Origin: Novosphingobium sp.
GTDB lineage: Bacteria > Pseudomonadota > Alphaproteobacteria > Sphingomonadales > Sphingomonadaceae
Length of the DNA stretch: 64,000 nucleotides
Direction: 5' to 3'
NCBI RefSeq assembly: GCF_025351285.1
Contig: NZ_JANXWG010000103.1
Location: 1 to 64,000, forward strand
Shown: positions 23,317 to 31,063 of the stretch, piece after piece
Position numbering within the stretch: the first letter of the stretch is position 1
Layout of the letters: every line of letters begins with the position of its first letter
Translations under genes and position numbers: made by a program
The notes under the pieces: generated by a model
The model's database searches: none
Told to the model about the DNA's origin: nothing
The model's input: only the letters and a program-made list of their open reading frames with translations

Positions 23317-24267
23317 ATGACGACCGAAAAACTCCACGCCGCCCCGCCCAGCGCGGCCGCGCTCGATCCCGCGATGCTCGCCAAGGCCGAGACGTTGACC
23401 GAGGCGCTGCCCTACCTGCAACGCTATGCCGGGCGCACGTTCGTGGTCAAATACGGCGGCCACGCGATGGGCGATCCCGAACTCGCGCGCAATTTCGCTG
23501 AGGACGTGGTGCTGCTGAAAGCGGTCGGCATCAACCCGGTGGTGGTCCACGGCGGCGGCCCGCAGATCGGCGCGATGCTAAAGAAGCTGGGCGTCGAATC
23601 GCACTTTATCGACGGCTTGCGCGTGACCGACAAGGCCACCGCCGAGATCGCCGAGATGGTCCTGTCGGGTGCGATCAACAAGGAACTGGTCGGCTGGATC
23701 GCTGCGGCGGGCGGCAAGGCGCTGGGCATTTCGGGCAAGGATGCGGGTCTGGTCACCGCCACCAAGGTCGAACGCACGGTCAAGGACCCCGATAGCCACA
23801 TCGAAAGCGTGATCGACCTGGGCTTCGTGGGCGAACCGTCACACGTCGATCCGATGATCCTCCACACCGCCAGCGATGCCGGGCTGATCCCGGTGATCGC
23901 CCCGATCGGCGCGGGGACAGACGGGCACACCTACAACATCAACGCCGATACGATGGCGGGCGCGATCGCTGCTTCGCTGAAAGCCGCGCGGCTGTTCCTG
24001 CTGACCGACGTGGCGGGCGTGCTCGACAAGGACAAGCGGCTGCTGACCGACTTGCGCCCCAGCGACATCGCGCGGTTGCAGGCCGACGGCACGATCCAGG
24101 GGGGGATGATCCCCAAGCTGGAGACGTGCGTCGCGGCGGTAGAGGCCGGGTGCGAGGCGGCGGTGGTGCTCGACGGCCGGGTGCCGCACGCGATGCTGCT
24201 CGAGATCTTCACCTCGCAAGGCGCTGGCACGCTGATCCGGGCGGAGGATGCTTCGGGTGCGCGCTGA
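23317..24267 (+). CDS. argB: Acetylglutamate kinase
   Basis: It phosphorylates N-acetylglutamate, the second step of arginine biosynthesis. The 316-residue protein has [12 protein letters not shown] (phosphate binding), [73 protein letters not shown] and [17 protein letters not shown], all as expected for the amino-acid kinase fold. Its last 20 bases overlap the following lipoprotein gene. Other arg genes are absent from the window. Confidence 0.97.
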
Positions 24268-24820
24268 TCGGGCTACGCTCGCCCTGGCGCTGTTCGCGCT
24301 GGCCGGATGCCAGGCGTCCGCGCCAGCCGACGCGCCCACATCGCGCGCGGCGCAGGACCCGATCGCCAGCGAATCGACCTTCACCGAACCTTCGTCCACA
24401 CCCAAGCCGCCCAAGCCCGCACCCAGTGCCGAGCCGGTCCCGGTCGCCTTGCCCGCGCCCGCGCCCGATGCGATGCAATCGCGCAACCCCGCCGAAGTGC
24501 TCGCCGCCTGGGGCCACGCGGTCGAGGCGCGCGACTGGGCCAAAGTGCGCGGCTTCTGGGGCGAACACGGCACGGTGAGCGGGCTTTCGCCGCAAGCCTT
24601 CGCCAAGCGCTGGTCCGTGCTGAAACAGTCGCGCGTCACCATCGACATCGGCCTTGGCGATGCCGGCGCCGGATCGCTGTTCTACACCGCGCCGGTCACG
24701 ATCACCGACGGCGCCCGCCGCATCGCCGGGCAGGTGTCGATGCGCCGGGTCAACGACGTCGATGGGGCCAGCGCGGAACAGTTGCGCTGGCATATCGAGA
24801 AATCGTCGGTCACGCCCTGA
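24248..24820 (+). CDS. Lipoprotein of unknown function
   Basis: This 190-residue protein has a lipobox (ALFALAGC), so it should be lipidated at that cysteine and anchored in an envelope membrane. A long Pro/Ala/Ser-rich linker (about residues 25-75) precedes a small domain ([33 protein letters not shown]...) that looks like a single alpha/beta fold of the NTF2-like type, though I cannot confirm that. The start overlaps argB by 20 bases in another frame, suggesting co-expression. Confidence 0.75.
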
Positions 24821-24947
24821 ACCTCCTGCACGCCCCGCCGATCGACCAACCGCAAACGCCAGCCGTCAACCGCGCCTTGGGGTGATTTCGCGTTCAGGCA
24901 AAATGCTCTAGAGCGCCAACTTCGCATCGTGTGCGCAAGGGACCACC

Positions 24948-25241
24948 ATGATCAACCAGGTACTTATTCCGATTCTCGTGCTGCTCGCCAACGTGATTTC
25001 CACGGTGGTGCTGGTCAGCTTCGTGCTGGGGCTGCTGGTGGCGTTCAACGTGGTGAGCATGAACAACCGTCTCGTGTCGTCGCTGATGCAGGCGCTCGAC
25101 GCCATCCTTACCCCGATCCTGCGCCCGGTGCGCCGGTTCATGCCGCCCACAGGTGGCATCGATTTCTCGCCGATCGTGCTGCTGGTCATGATCAAGATCG
25201 TGCTGATCATCCTGTCGTACCTGGGAACGCAATTCGAATGA
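24948..25241 (+). CDS. yggT: YggT family membrane protein
   Basis: This 97-residue protein has two hydrophobic segments separated by the YggT signature [41 protein letters not shown]. YggT proteins are linked by context to cell division, osmotic response and membrane integrity, without a settled mechanism. The stop overlaps the folD start as ATGA, so the two are coupled. Confidence 0.9.
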
Positions 25242-26152
25242 GCGATGCCTTCCCTGCAAGCACCGCAGCGCTGATCGACGGCAAGGCCTTCGCCGCCGGC
25301 CTGCGCGCGAAAGTGGCCATCCACGCCGCCGCGTTCGAAGCGCAGTCGGGCCGCAAGGCCGGCCTGGCGGTGGTGCTGGTCGGCGAAGACCCCGCCAGCC
25401 AGGTCTATGTCCGCTCCAAGGGCAAGGCCACGGTCGAATGCGGCATGGCCAGCTTCGAACACAGGTTGCCCGCCGACACCACGCAGGCGGACCTGATCGC
25501 GCTGGTCGATCAATTGAATGCCGATGGCGCGGTCGATGGCATTCTCGTCCAGTTGCCGCTGCCGGGGCACCTCGACGAGCAGGCGGTGGTCGAACGGATC
25601 AGCCCGACCAAGGATGTCGACGGGCTCACCCCGGTCAGCACCGGCCGGCTTGCGTTGGGTTTGCCCGGGCTGGTGCCATGCACGCCGCTGGGCTCGCTGA
25701 TGCTGCTGAAAGACCGGCTCGGTTCGCTTTCGGGCCTCAACGCGGTGGTGATCGGGCGTTCGATCCTGGTCGGCAAGCCGATGGCGCAATTGCTGCTGGG
25801 CGAAAGCTGCACCGTGACGATCGCGCACAGCCGCACGAAGGACCTCCCCCAAGTGGTGCGCCGCGCCGATATCGTGGTGGCCGCGGTGGGCCGGCCCGAG
25901 ATGGTCAAGGCCGATTGGATCAAGCCCGGCGCGACCGTGATCGACGTCGGCATCAACCGCCTTCCGCCGACCGAGACGTCGCCCAAGGGCAAACTGGTCG
26001 GGGACGTTGATTTCGCCGGCGTGCGCGAGGTGGCGGGCGCCATTACTCCGGTTCCGGGTGGAGTCGGCCCGATGACGATCGCGGTGCTGTTGCGCAATGC
26101 GCTGGTGGCGGCCTACCGCAATGCGGGGTTGGACGCGCCTTCCGAACTTTAG
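25238..26152 (+). CDS. folD: Bifunctional methylenetetrahydrofolate dehydrogenase/cyclohydrolase
   Basis: FolD interconverts 5,10-methylene- and 10-formyl-tetrahydrofolate. The 304-residue protein has [22 protein letters not shown], the catalytic-lysine region [55 protein letters not shown] and [19 protein letters not shown]. The track's longer ORF runs back through yggT; the ATG at 25238 is right because it gives the family N terminus and the ATGA overlap. Confidence 0.97.
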
Positions 26153-26196
26153 CGCCGGGGTGGCGCCACGCGCGTGCCGGCCCTATGCTCACCCGC

Positions 26197-26898
26197 ATGA
26201 ACCGGATCGCGCTCACCGTAACCCTGCTCGCCCTCTCGACCGCCGCCGTCGCCGCGCCGCGCCAGACCTTGCGCCCCACCGCCAACCCCGGCGGGGTGAT
26301 CGCGGCCGAGATCGGCTTTGCCGCGCTGGCGCAGGAAAAGGGCCAGTGGACCGCGTTTCGCACCACCGCTGCCAAGGGCGCCAAGATGTTCGCGCCCGGG
26401 CCGGTGCTGGTTGCCGAGTACCTCAAGAACCGCAAGGATCCGCCGGTCGCGGTCAAGTGGCAGCCGCACAAAGTGTGGTCGAGCTGCGACGGATCGATCG
26501 CGGTCACGCGCGGGGCGTGGCAAAGGCCTGACTCTGTGGGCTATTTCATCACCGTGTGGCAGCGCCAGAAGGACGGCGGCTACAGATGGGTGCTCGACCA
26601 GGGCGATGCGCTGACGCAGCCGCTGGCCGAGCCCGACGCGATCGACGGCGTAGTGGCGGATTGCCCCGCGCCCGGACATCGCGGCGACCACAAGGATGAC
26701 CTGCGCGATGCCAAGGGCAAGCCGCTGACCGGCCCGCAGGCGTTTGCAGACCCGCTGAGCGCTACTTCGAATGACCGGTCGCTCGCCTGGACCACCACGA
26801 TCGATACCGCCGGCGCGCGCGATTTCACGCTGCACTTGCGCAAGGACGGCGCGATGCGCGATGTGCTCCACGCCAGCGTCATGCCCAAAGCCCGCTGA
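26197..26898 (+). CDS. Exported protein of unknown function
   Basis: This 233-residue product has a signal peptide (MNRIALTVTLLALSTAAVAA). The mature part, IAAEIGFAALAQEKGQWTAFRTTAAKGAKMFAPGPV...WSSCDGSIAVTRGAW...GYFITVWQRQKDGGYRWVLDQGDAL, has the rhythm of an NTF2/SnoaL-like cone-shaped domain with a W-x-V-x-x-D ending, followed by an extra C-terminal beta region. Two cysteines might pair. No function is inferred. It is followed closely by marC. Confidence 0.72.
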   Translation: MNRIALTVTLLALSTAAVAAPRQTLRPTANPGGVIAAEIGFAALAQEKGQWTAFRTTAAKGAKMFAPGPVLVAEYLKNRKDPPVAVKWQPHKVWSSCDGSIAVTRGAWQRPDSVGYFITVWQRQKDGGYRWVLDQGDALTQPLAEPDAIDGVVADCPAPGHRGDHKDDLRDAKGKPLTGPQAFADPLSATSNDRSLAWTTTIDTAGARDFTLHLRKDGAMRDVLHASVMPKAR

Positions 26899-26929
26899 AC
26901 TTCACCTCATCCAGATTGCGACCAAGCCC

Positions 26930-27559
26930 TTGTACGATCTTTTCATTTCCGCCTTCGTCACGCTGTTCCTGGTGATCGATCCGCCCGGCTGCGCGCCGAT
27001 CTATGCCGGGCTGGTCGCGGGCGCGAGCACCGCGCAGGCGCGCGCGATGGCGATCCGCGCCACGGTGATCGCCGGGTTGATCCTGGTGGCTTTCGCGCTG
27101 TTCGGGCAGGCGCTGCTGGGCGCGATGCACATCGGGCTCGACGCGTTTCGCATCGCCGGCGGGATCATGCTGTTCCTGATCGCGCTCGACATGGTTTTCG
27201 AAAAACGCACCCAGCGCCGCGAGCAGCGCGCCGAGAAGGTCAAGGCTGCGCACACGGAAGGCCCGCCGATCGACGACGTTTCGGTGTTCCCGATGGCAAT
27301 GCCGATGATCGCCGGGCCGGGCTCGATCGCCACGGTCATGCTGTTGATGAGCCGCAGCACCGGGCCCGAAGCAATGGGCGTGATCCTGGCGGCGCTGTTT
27401 GCGGTGATGGTGCTGACGCTGCTGGCGCTGCTGGCGGCGCGCTCGCTGATGCGGCTGGTCGGCGCGCAAGGCGAAGCGGTGTTGACCCGGCTGCTGGGCG
27501 TGCTGCTGGCGGCGCTGGCCGCGCAATACGTGATCGACGGTTTGAAGAACGTGCTGTGA
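26930..27559 (+). CDS. MarC family integral membrane protein
   Basis: This 209-residue protein has six predicted spans and the MarC pattern: ISAFVTLFLVIDPPGCAPIYAGL near the N terminus, RIAGGIMLFLIALDMVF in the middle, and FPMAMPMIAGPGSIATVMLL, the second-half signature. MarC proteins are putative small-molecule transporters of uncertain substrate. The frame is open upstream through the preceding gene; the only suitable start is TTG 26930 (LYDLFISAF), without a clear ribosome site. It ends 7 bases before the methyltransferase. Confidence 0.85.
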   Translation: MYDLFISAFVTLFLVIDPPGCAPIYAGLVAGASTAQARAMAIRATVIAGLILVAFALFGQALLGAMHIGLDAFRIAGGIMLFLIALDMVFEKRTQRREQRAEKVKAAHTEGPPIDDVSVFPMAMPMIAGPGSIATVMLLMSRSTGPEAMGVILAALFAVMVLTLLALLAARSLMRLVGAQGEAVLTRLLGVLLAALAAQYVIDGLKNVL

Positions 27560-27566
27560 GCGCGCG

Positions 27567-28262
27567 ATGAGTTCACTGGCGAACCGCACCATCGCTGATG
27601 AGCAGATGGATGCGGAGGATATCGATCCGGCAGTGTACGCGGCGGTGCTGCGCGATCTGGCGAAGATCAACCGCTGGACTTTCACCGCCTGGCCCACGCT
27701 GGCCTTCCTCGATCGCGCGATCGGGACGCGCCGCGCGTTCAGCCTGCTCGACGTGGGGTTCGGACAGGGCGACATGCTGCGGGCAATCGCCCACTGGGCC
27801 GGCAAGCGCGGGATCGCTGCGCGGCTGGTGGGCGTCGATCTCAACCCGCTGAGTGCCGAAGTGGCGCTCGCTGCTGTGCCGCATGATCCGGCCATCGAAT
27901 ACCGCACCGGCGACTATCTCGACCAACCCGAAGCGTTCGATTTCATCATCAGCAGCCAGGTCGCGCACCACATGGCCGACGCGCAGCTCGACCAGTTCCT
28001 GCGCCATATGGACGCCGAAGCGCGCGCCGGCTGGCTGGTCAGCGACCTCCACCGCCACCGCTTTGCGCACGGCGGCTACCCGCTGCTGGCGCGCGTGCTA
28101 GGCGTCCACCGCATCGTGCGCGAAGACGGCACGCTGTCGATCGCACGATCATACCGCCCGCGCGAATGGCCCGCCATCCTGGCGCGCGCGGGGATCGATC
28201 CGGAGACTGTCGCGATCGCGCGGCGCTTCCCCTTCCGGCTGACGGTCGAACGCGTGCGCTGA
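27567..28262 (+). CDS. SAM-dependent methyltransferase of the type III PKS cluster
   Basis: This 231-residue class I methyltransferase contains FSLLDVGFGQGDML (motif I), LVGVDLNP (motif II), FDFIISSQVAHHM (motif IV) and a basic C-terminal part. It sits directly before a type III polyketide synthase and a flavoprotein in the same direction, so its likely substrate is the polyketide ring or a derivative. That job is inferred from context, not from the sequence. Confidence 0.87.
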   Translation: MSSLANRTIADEQMDAEDIDPAVYAAVLRDLAKINRWTFTAWPTLAFLDRAIGTRRAFSLLDVGFGQGDMLRAIAHWAGKRGIAARLVGVDLNPLSAEVALAAVPHDPAIEYRTGDYLDQPEAFDFIISSQVAHHMADAQLDQFLRHMDAEARAGWLVSDLHRHRFAHGGYPLLARVLGVHRIVREDGTLSIARSYRPREWPAILARAGIDPETVAIARRFPFRLTVERVR

Positions 28263-28330
28263 ACCCTTCGGGGCATCTGGCGCGTTGAGCCGCCACGGTC
28301 CATACAGGTTGCAATAAGGATAACGATTTG

Positions 28331-29413
28331 ATGCCATCGGGCACGGCCTCACACCACGCGCATATCCATGCGATCGGCACTGCCGTGCCCGATCACGATA
28401 TCCATGGGCCGTACATCGCATGGGCGCAGCAGCGGCTGGCCGATCCGCGCGAGATCGCACTGTTCAAGCGCATGGCCGGCCGCGCCGGAATCGGACACCG
28501 CTGGTCGGTCCTGCCGCGCTCACCCGATGGCGGATCGCCGGTCGATGCGGGCGGGTTTTATCACGGCAACATCGCACCCAGCACTGCCCGCCGCATGGAG
28601 CTTTACGCCGCCACCGCGCCCAATCTGGCGATTGCCGCGATCCGCGACCTGGAGCGCCAGGTGTCGATCGAGGGCGTCACGCACCTCGTGCTCGCCAGTT
28701 GCACCGGCTTTGTTGCGCCGGGGGTGGACCAGATCGTGATCCGCAAGCTGGGGCTCGATCCGCATATCGAACGCACGCTGGTGGGCTTCATGGGTTGCTA
28801 CGCCGCCGTAGCCGCGATGCGGGTGGCGCATCACATCGCGCGCTCCGAGCCGGCGGCGCGGGTGCTGGTGGTGTGTGTCGAGCTGTCATCGCTGCATCTG
28901 GGTGCGTGCGGCACGATGGAGGAACTGCTGGCGGCCTTGCTGTTCGGCGATGGCGCCGCGGCGGCGCTGGTTTCGTCGGAACCATCGGGCTTGAGGATCG
29001 ATCGCCTGTTCACCGCCGCACTGCCCGACAGCGACGCGCTGATCCAGTGGAACATCGGCGATACCGGGTTCGAAATGGTGCTTTCGGGGGAAGTTCCGGG
29101 CCGGATCAACACCGCGCTGCACGATCCGGGATTGCGGCTCGATATTCTGGGCGGACAGCGAGCGAGTGAGATCGACTACGCGGTCCACGCCGGCGGACGC
29201 TCGATCCTGGATGCGGTAGAGCACGGGCTAGGCCTCGATCCGGAGGCGCTCACCGATTCGCGCGCCGTGCTGGCGGCCAACGGCAACATGAGTTCGGCCA
29301 CGCTGCTGTTCGTGCTCGCGCGATTGATGGCGAAAGACGGAAACCCCAACGGCGTGGCGATGGCGTTCGGGCCGGGGCTTGCCGCCGAAGGCTTCGCGTT
29401 TTCACGAACATGA
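28331..29413 (+). CDS. Type III polyketide synthase (chalcone/stilbene synthase-like)
   Basis: This homodimeric ketosynthase extends an acyl starter with malonyl-CoA and cyclises the chain. The 360-residue protein has the catalytic triad in context: Cys in LVLASCTGFVAPG, His in YAVHAGGRSILDAVE and Asn in VLAANGNMSSATLLFVL. GFMGCYAAVAAMRVA and the C-terminal GVAMAFGPGLAAEG loop are also typical. The ATG at 28331 follows an AAGGA site 12 bases back. Its stop overlaps the flavoprotein start as ATGA. Bacterial members of this group make alkylresorcinols, alkylpyrones or related phenolic lipids; which applies here is unknown. Confidence 0.92.
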   Translation: MPSGTASHHAHIHAIGTAVPDHDIHGPYIAWAQQRLADPREIALFKRMAGRAGIGHRWSVLPRSPDGGSPVDAGGFYHGNIAPSTARRMELYAATAPNLAIAAIRDLERQVSIEGVTHLVLASCTGFVAPGVDQIVIRKLGLDPHIERTLVGFMGCYAAVAAMRVAHHIARSEPAARVLVVCVELSSLHLGACGTMEELLAALLFGDGAAAALVSSEPSGLRIDRLFTAALPDSDALIQWNIGDTGFEMVLSGEVPGRINTALHDPGLRLDILGGQRASEIDYAVHAGGRSILDAVEHGLGLDPEALTDSRAVLAANGNMSSATLLFVLARLMAKDGNPNGVAMAFGPGLAAEGFAFSRT

Positions 29414-30495
29414 GCAGCGCCCGCCCTCTCGTGATCGGTGGCGGCCCGGCGGGTGCGGCGGCGGCGATCCGGCTGGCGATGGCGGGCACCCCCGCGCTGC
29501 TGGTCGAGCGCAACCGCACGATCGGCGATGCCTTGTGCGGCGGGTTCCTGAGCTGGCGCACGCTCGACCGGCTACGCGCGCTGGGGGTCGATCCCGATGC
29601 GATCGGCGGGCACCGCGTGACGCGGCTTGCGTTGATCGACGGCACGCGCGAGACGGTTCGTGCGCTGCCCTACCCCGCGCTCGGCCTCTCGCGCTACGCG
29701 ATGGACACTGCGCTGATCGAGCGGGCAATCGCGCTCGGCACCGAAGTGCGCCACGCTACCGTCAGGATGGATGGCGCCGAAGCGTTCGACGAAAGCGGCG
29801 TGGCAATCCCCGCCTCGGCGGTGTTCCTCGCCAGCGGCAAGCATGAAACGCGCGGCGCCAGCCGTCCGCGCGATGCGGCCGGGCCCGATCCGTTCGTGGG
29901 CATCCGGCTGCGCTTGGCGGCTACCCCCGCCCTCGCCCGCGCGCTCGACGAGCGGATCGAAATGCACATGTTCGAAGGCGGCTATTGCGGCGTGGTGCTG
30001 CAGGACGGCGCCAGCGCCAACTTGTGCATGGCGGTGCGCAAGAGCCGCCTCGCCCGCGCCGGTGGCAAGCCCGCCGGTTTGTTTGCAGAACTTTTCGCCA
30101 CGCACCCGATCTTGCGCGAACGACTTGCGGAAATGCCCGACGACGCCGCATTCGACGCCATCGGCCACGTCCCCTACGGCTGGCGCGCGCGCGAAACGCT
30201 GCCGGGCCTGTTCCGCCTGGGCGACCAGGCCGGCTGCATCCCCTCATTCGCCGGCGAAGGCATCGGCATCGCACTGGCCAGCGCAGAGGCAGCGGTGGAC
30301 GCTTGGGTGAAAGGCGGCGCAGAGGCCGCGCCCGAATACCAGCGGCGGTTTGGTGCGCACATTGCCGGGCCGGTGCGGACGGCTGGGCTGGTTACGAAGC
30401 TGTCGGTCCGTCCGAGCGGAGCCAGCGTCTTGGCCCGGCTAGCCGCCATCCCCGGCGCGACCGGGTTGGCGGGGCGGCTGACGCGGGTGAGTTAG
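29410..30495 (+). CDS. FAD-dependent oxidoreductase of the type III PKS cluster
   Basis: This 361-residue flavoprotein has a Rossmann FAD-binding start (LVIGGGPAGAAAAIRLAMAG...LLVERN) and the second FAD motif LFRLGDQAGCIPSFAGEGIGIALASAE. It resembles geranylgeranyl-reductase / aromatic hydroxylase flavoproteins. Its start overlaps the polyketide synthase stop, so it almost certainly acts on the same product, for example hydroxylating an aromatic ring to a quinol or quinone. The stop lies 6 bases from the convergent hicB stop. Confidence 0.88.
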   Translation: MSSARPLVIGGGPAGAAAAIRLAMAGTPALLVERNRTIGDALCGGFLSWRTLDRLRALGVDPDAIGGHRVTRLALIDGTRETVRALPYPALGLSRYAMDTALIERAIALGTEVRHATVRMDGAEAFDESGVAIPASAVFLASGKHETRGASRPRDAAGPDPFVGIRLRLAATPALARALDERIEMHMFEGGYCGVVLQDGASANLCMAVRKSRLARAGGKPAGLFAELFATHPILRERLAEMPDDAAFDAIGHVPYGWRARETLPGLFRLGDQAGCIPSFAGEGIGIALASAEAAVDAWVKGGAEAAPEYQRRFGAHIAGPVRTAGLVTKLSVRPSGASVLARLAAIPGATGLAGRLTRVS

Positions 30496-30501
30496 CCGCG
30501 T

Positions 30502-30723
30502 TCAGGCGGCAGCGTAGATAGCCGGACGGTAGCGCGGCTCGGGTATCGGCAGGCTACGCTCGATCGCAGTTTCGATCCACAATTCGATAGCGACTTGCGC
30601 TTCGGCAATGGCCTCTTCGGGCGTTTCGCCATGCGCCGAGCATGGCTTGAGATCGGGCACATCCGCGATCCAGCAATCGTCGTCAGCGGCCCAGAAGACG
30701 TTGATATGGTAGCGGTGCTGCAT
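30502..30723 (-). CDS. hicB: HicB-like antitoxin
   Basis: This 73-residue protein has the HicB partial RNase-H-like fold: YHINVFWAADDDCWIADVPDLKPCSAHGETPEEAIAEAQVAIELWIETAIE. HicB binds and blocks HicA. No C-terminal ribbon-helix-helix or HTH is present, so it is the short form and may not autoregulate strongly. Its ATG overlaps the hicA stop (TGATG), giving the usual hicA-hicB order. Confidence 0.88.
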   Translation of the reverse strand: MQHRYHINVFWAADDDCWIADVPDLKPCSAHGETPEEAIAEAQVAIELWIETAIERSLPIPEPRYRPAIYAAA

Positions 30724-30977
30724 CACTTGTCCAACTTGAGACCATTCGCCTCGACAATACCAAGAAACTCGCGGACCTGATAGCGCTTTGCGTCCTTGCC
30801 TTTGGGCTGGAGGACCAGAAGCGCATCGCATTGCGGGTGCGCGTAGGACCGATGGCTGCCCTTGGAGCGAATATGCGTGAAACCGAACGCTTCGATCATT
30901 GCGATGAAATCGCGAAAATCGATCGAACGATCGGTCGATTGCAGGAGCAGGGTGTAGAGTTTGGCGGGCTTGGTCAT
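30723..30977 (-). CDS. hicA: HicA-like mRNA interferase toxin
   Basis: HicA toxins are small double-stranded-RNA-binding-like ribonucleases that cut mRNA. The 84-residue protein has the core RDFIAMIEAFGFTHIRSKGSHRSYAHP, with the catalytic histidine in GSH. It is a little longer than the typical 60-residue HicA, with an extra N-terminal MTKPAKLYTLLLQSTDRS. The track's start at 31019 adds 14 unsupported residues. The active-site residues look intact. Confidence 0.87.
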   Translation of the reverse strand: MTKPAKLYTLLLQSTDRSIDFRDFIAMIEAFGFTHIRSKGSHRSYAHPQCDALLVLQPKGKDAKRYQVREFLGIVEANGLKLDK

Positions 30978-31063
30978 GGGCTTGATCCCCTTCGGCCACA
31001 CTACAGGTATCAACCACACATCTCTGTCAAACTGCTTTTCCCGGACTCTGCAATCACCAAGAA

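Follow-up and report, generated by a model that had tools for sequence, protein, structure and literature searches.

A type III polyketide synthase cassette in Novosphingobium, predicted to form a methylated, oxygenated phenolic lipid of the alkylresorcinol type

We analysed a 64,000-nucleotide stretch of Novosphingobium DNA (the window) and describe in it a three-gene type III polyketide synthase (PKS) cassette. The cassette probably combines an alkylresorcinol synthase with a tailoring methyltransferase (MT) and a hydroxylase, yielding a methylated, oxygenated phenolic lipid or quinone, and most likely belongs, as a sphingomonad branch, to an enzyme set that cyanobacteria (hierridins), planctomycetes and actinomycetes are already known to carry. 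This reading draws directly on the identity of the genes, their intact catalytic residues, the conservation of the trio, a resorcinol-type tryptophan in the PKS and the predicted folds.

Gene layout and conservation of the trio

The features of the cassette are as follows.

27567-28262, forward strand: MT, a class I SAM-dependent methyltransferase (HidA-like, a relative of PRK06202), 231 aa, Methyltransf_25/11
28331-29413, forward strand: PKS, a type III polyketide synthase predicted to form alkylresorcinol (resorcylic acid), 360 aa, Chal_sti_synt_N/C
29410-30495, forward strand: FAD enzyme, an FAD-dependent oxidoreductase of the PHBH-fold class A type, predicted to be a ring hydroxylase, 361 aa
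29410-29413, forward strand: ATGA start/stop overlap of the PKS and FAD genes, read from the sequence

An earlier, sequence-only reading had placed the same three co-directional genes here, and Pfam backs each of its assignments; its sphingomonad-like host agrees with the genus, Novosphingobium. The overlap it had noted is indeed present and suggests that translation of the PKS and FAD genes is coupled. Upstream, a gap of 68 bp separates the MT gene from the PKS gene, which starts with ATG at 28331 (a TTG is also in frame at 28328). The MT start at 27567 is supported because R7 and E12 are among the residues invariant over 38 homologues. No second type III PKS was found in the 4.08-Mb genome of the window.

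The MT gene starts 7 bp past the stop of marC, the last gene of a block (argB, a yggT-like gene, folD, a hypothetical gene and marC; 23317-27559) that is conserved in the 12 genus genomes sampled. The cassette lies at marC in the window alone of the 13 compared, which suggests that the end of a housekeeping operon was locally rearranged or took up an insertion; transcription from this operon possibly reads through into the cassette. Scans of 27300-30900 for sigma-70 promoters and terminators gave nothing relevant above shuffles, and neither nucleotide similarity to plasmid records nor PHROGs matches were found. Convergent to the 3′ end of the cassette (30502-31019, reverse strand) are a gene for a hicB-like antitoxin (HicB_lk_antitox) and, upstream of it, a small ORF resembling hicA.

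Close homologues of the PKS, at about 47% identity or more, are present in 36 of 201 genomes of the order and 37 of 196 of the genus. Since they recur there with full-length open frames, the occurrence of the PKS cassette is far beyond chance. The same identity bound delimits the clade of the window PKS, which a gap separates from a second alphaproteobacterial group at ~30%. One finding that would have spoken against the sequence-only reading, namely that homologues of the three genes are never neighbours in related genomes, did not arise: they stand in the order PKS-MT-FAD in 58 of the 77 clade loci (window included), and their co-occurrence in the genus is near-perfect. The PKS-FAD pair is kept in 16 further clade loci with the MT divergent upstream or elsewhere: in 11 the MT lies upstream on the opposite strand, and five show PKS-FAD with no MT within the examined stretch. 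Two loci have no recognisable MT and/or FAD gene, and the window alone has the order MT-PKS-FAD. In the five loci with a displaced MT, an MT orthologue (66-69% identical) is found elsewhere in the same genome: in one (G689) it lies some 6.5 kb off, and in the others (G582, G676, G699 and G678) it shows no linkage or sits on a different contig.

Of the 37 PKS-carrying genomes among 196 Novosphingobium species, 36 also have the MT (Fisher 5e-37) and 35 the FAD enzyme (Fisher 4e-35), values that ignore kinship among the species and are indicative only. Outside these PKS carriers the MT occurs in one genome and the FAD enzyme in one; one PKS-less genome carries both orthologues. The exceptions G680, G724 and G741 look like drafts that are fragmented or incomplete, and in the first two the genes lie at the ends of contigs. 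Because the three genes co-occur even where they are physically separated, there is strong evidence that they form a real functional unit serving one pathway. The ~30% PKS group, common in Alphaproteobacteria, had no MT or FAD neighbours in the ten loci examined.

Two further observations concern these relatives. Members of the ~30% group (L086-L095) are sister to Mtb Pks11 in our tree and carry the resorcinol tryptophan too. Some relatives have a second, CMAS-like methyltransferase in linkage with either the displaced MT or the PKS-FAD pair (L204:8195-9094, L063:9457-10290, L205:11680-12495 and L096:7859-8695); in the window genome no close copy was found, the best being a 38% partial match.

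Catalytic residues and ring closure by the polyketide synthase

In the window PKS both Pfam domains, Chal_sti_synt_N (1.1e-25) and Chal_sti_synt_C (5e-21), score over their cut-offs, and the two thiolase-fold domains together with the Cys-His-Asn triad identify a type III PKS. The triad, already read as intact from the sequence, consists of C156, H286 and N319 and is invariant across all aligned PKS homologues. Aligned through Mtb Pks11, W240 falls at the position of ArsB Trp281, the resorcinol-type tryptophan. Exchange at ArsB Trp281 and ArsC Gly284 converts resorcinol into pyrone formation and vice versa (PMC6274091), the same tryptophan is reported in SrsA, FtpA, PKS10 and PKS11 (PMC5916927), and both papers link it to resorcinol formation, a single-residue switch that was worked out in ArsB/ArsC and may not apply to all clades. 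A tryptophan stands at this position in 63 of the 66 PKSs aligned, the exceptions being exactly PKS18 (Leu), THNS (Tyr) and CHS (Gly). Nine residues on, M249 would correspond to ArsC Met293, judging by spacing alone.

Of 13 pocket positions compared in PKS18 numbering, the window PKS departs from the Cyanobium type at just two, 205 (C to S) and 221 (N to A). The tree groups the window clade with PKSs of hierridin- and planctomycete-type cassettes, apart from PKS18, with modest support (0.79), and puts the window PKS in another clade than Mtb Pks11.

These data bear on the alternative that the PKS is an alkylpyrone synthase of the PKS18 or ArsC kind, its pyrone being tailored by the MT and the FAD enzyme (compare the BpsA-BpsB pair of Bacillus). 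The best PDB match by sequence is PKS18, a pyrone former, and pyrones are frequent by-products of type III PKSs. However, PKS18 has Leu and ArsC has Gly where the window PKS has W240 (PMC6274091), the window clade stands apart from PKS18 in the tree, and a resorcinol would be better suited to a flavin ring hydroxylase. The sequence-only reading had left the choice between a tailored phenolic lipid and an alkylpyrone; the former stands as a prediction, and the latter is disfavoured because the PKS has W240. We consider an alkylpyrone synthase quite unlikely.

Tailoring enzymes, starter supply and product

Methyltransf_25/11 match the MT in Pfam with E about 1e-10, and NCBIfam PRK06202 does so at 1.7e-42, yet under its cut-off. 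Its AF2 model (pLDDT 96) finds its best Foldseek matches in NovO/CouO, which C-methylate phenolic rings, followed by plant O-MTs. The predicted target of methylation is the ring of the alkylresorcinol or its hydroxyl; among related enzymes, that of G. maris appears to be a C-methyltransferase and HidA an O-methyltransferase (PMC10896814).

For the FAD enzyme, FAD_binding_3 (1.5e-8, Pfam) scores over its cut-off but spans residues 7-118 only. The AF2 model (pLDDT 88) has 3-hydroxybenzoate 6-hydroxylase as its top Foldseek match (E 3e-19), followed by class A monooxygenases, halogenases and also GGR-like enzymes. The FAD_binding_3 match and the PHBH-like fold of the predicted model place the protein among the class A flavoprotein aromatic hydroxylases, and we predict a ring hydroxylase. 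Since hierridin B carries an additional oxygen on its ring, its synthesis calls for a hydroxylase. Alternatively, the FAD enzyme could reduce or dehydrogenate the alkyl chain or the ring, leading to a saturated or otherwise reduced methylated resorcinol. Its best NCBIfam match is the geranylgeranyl reductase superfamily (GG-red-SF, 1e-20, 75 bits, under cut-off; QhpG also matches weakly), and GGR-like 3oz2 and the reductase AbsH3 are strong Foldseek matches too. With the geranylgeranyl reductase family (TIGR02032), though, it scores 74.7 bits against a curated cut-off of 158.8 bits, the top structural matches are aromatic hydroxylases and halogenases, and the Deinococcus cassette has a full-length FAD_binding_3 hydroxylase (175 bits), albeit one not clearly orthologous by pairwise BLAST. 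We regard a reductase as unlikely. A cyanobacterial survey describes the hierridin oxidoreductase step as a reduction (PMC8086630).

As the sequence-only reading had remarked, no starter-supplying gene is adjacent: an acyl-activating, ACP or ketosynthase gene is absent beside the window cassette. In 15 Novosphingobium loci the PKS gene is immediately preceded by a ketosynthase gene, and in ten of these an ACP gene was called just ahead of the ketosynthase gene. Such ACP-ketosynthase pairs (several of L208-L230; L110:3557-4989), sometimes preceded by a DUF2147 protein, could possibly be a dedicated starter-making module of these relatives. Nothing closely similar to the Novosphingobium pLA3-type ketosynthase was found in the window genome, where the best match is FabF-like, 37% identical and located elsewhere. 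Given that no starter gene is adjacent and no close ketosynthase copy is present, the window strain would draw its starter from primary fatty acid metabolism.

In our preferred explanation, an alkylresorcinol synthase with a tailoring MT and hydroxylase, the PKS would take a long-chain acyl-CoA or acyl-ACP from primary metabolism and extend it about three times with malonyl-CoA, and an aldol condensation would close the chain to a 5-alkylresorcinol or alkylresorcylic acid. The MT would then methylate a ring carbon or oxygen and the FAD enzyme would hydroxylate the ring, giving a methylated alkyl-hydroquinone, an alkylquinone or a hierridin-like phenol. Several parts of this scheme are inferred: how long the starter is, whether carbon or oxygen is methylated, whether and at which stage the ring is hydroxylated, and what the end product is and does, perhaps as a membrane phenolic lipid or a redox quinone. 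In the literature found, no product is reported for any alphaproteobacterial member of this cassette type.

A more specific proposal, whose claim on role is compatible with the preferred explanation, is that the product is a polyketide quinone and offers respiration an alternative electron carrier, the role reported for the pkqABC product of mycobacteria (PMC9927152). The order PKS-MT-oxidoreductase, usual among the window's relatives, is that of pkqABC (PMC9927152), and a cupredoxin gene adjoins the cassette in seven genus loci, a recurrent neighbour hinting at a redox role of the product. Against this, the cassette is found in only 37 of 196 species and has no cupredoxin gene beside it in the window; we assign the proposal a low probability. 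The cupredoxin is small and secreted, and its gene lies at L063:6329-6784, at L230:3260-3733 (oriented locus) and in five other loci. A bolder and decidedly improbable idea is that the product of the sphingomonad cassette is a methylated alkylquinone not yet described, serving ubiquinone-using alphaproteobacteria as an accessory redox lipid, and that variants of the cassette bring along an ACP-ketosynthase module of their own for the starter and are partnered by a periplasmic cupredoxin.

For sphingomonad genomes, reports of the antiSMASH type enter just 'T3PKS' and name no product (e.g. PMC13292080, PMC9281055). Here, a diagnostic residue and strict three-gene co-occurrence tie such a region to the hierridin/alkylresorcinol cassette type, so that a product class can be predicted and lipid analysis of Novosphingobium, a common soil and water genus, becomes directly testable. 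Were the product a quinone, this would touch on the question whether polyketide quinones reach beyond actinomycetes.

Comparison with known systems

The enzyme set is already known in kind, the product of the window cassette being predicted from sequence. Named genomes and plasmid records hold homologous trios in Planctomycetota, Cyanobacteria (Cyanobium, Aphanothece), Deinococcus, Bacteroidota, Acidobacteriota, Agrococcus and Legionella. The main orders among the 96 loci of this wider scan are MT-FAD-PKS (36), PKS-MT-FAD (18) and FAD-PKS-MT (12); the co-directional MT-PKS-FAD of the window is not among them. MT and PKS are homologous throughout the wider trios. By pairwise BLAST the FAD protein of the Deinococcus/Agrococcus branch has no detectable similarity to the window FAD enzyme, and its slot there may be filled by a different flavoprotein. 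To characterised types, the window proteins are about 37-41% (PKS), 26-32% (MT) and 24-31% (FAD) identical.

The hidABC cassettes of Cyanobium and other cyanobacteria have the same three enzyme types as the window, homologous sequences (BLASTP against the Cyanobium-locus proteins: MT 3e-18, FAD 2e-9) and a near-identical PKS pocket, with identities to a Cyanobium-type locus (L119) of ~41% for the PKS, 30% for the MT and 31% for the FAD enzyme. The hidABC order corresponds to MT-FAD-PKS and was read as such in Cyanobium/Aphanothece; hidC-hidA-hidB, or PKS-MT-oxidoreductase, also occurs in cyanobacteria (PMC8086630) and is the usual order in the window's relatives, whereas the window itself, with MT-PKS-FAD, has neither. 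The planctomycetal alkylresorcinol operon of the Gimesia maris type likewise has homologous MT, FAD and PKS genes and differs from the window in its order, MT-FAD-PKS, its PKS being ~37% identical (uncultured Gimesia, L112). Planctomycete PKSs of the cassette type made pentadecyl- and heptadecylresorcinols (C15/C17) in C. glutamicum, and addition of the MT and FAD genes to the planctomycete PKS gave a methylated resorcinol (PMC10896814).

According to the literature, srsABC (Streptomyces griseus) and pkqABC (Mycobacterium, Streptomyces) comprise the same functional trio and the resorcinol tryptophan. Their order, PKS-MT-oxidoreductase, is that of the window's relatives; the window PKS lies outside the Mtb Pks11 clade. 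At the actinobacterial loci examined (Nocardia, Streptomyces BHT-5-2, Tsukamurella) srs/pkq-type neighbours were absent, and two actinobacterial PKS loci lacked both MT and oxidoreductase genes. Azotobacter ArsB resembles the window PKS in its Trp281 and, as predicted, in its use of acyl starters, but the ars operon has a dedicated fatty acid synthase, ArsA, which passes the acyl starters on and has no counterpart beside the window cassette. The sequence-only reading had modelled the cassette on srsA-srsB-srsC, which is apt for the functional trio; homology was shown to the hierridin/planctomycete (hidABC-type) set. Judged by sequence, the nearest relatives with homology shown here are the hierridin and planctomycete alkylresorcinol cassettes.
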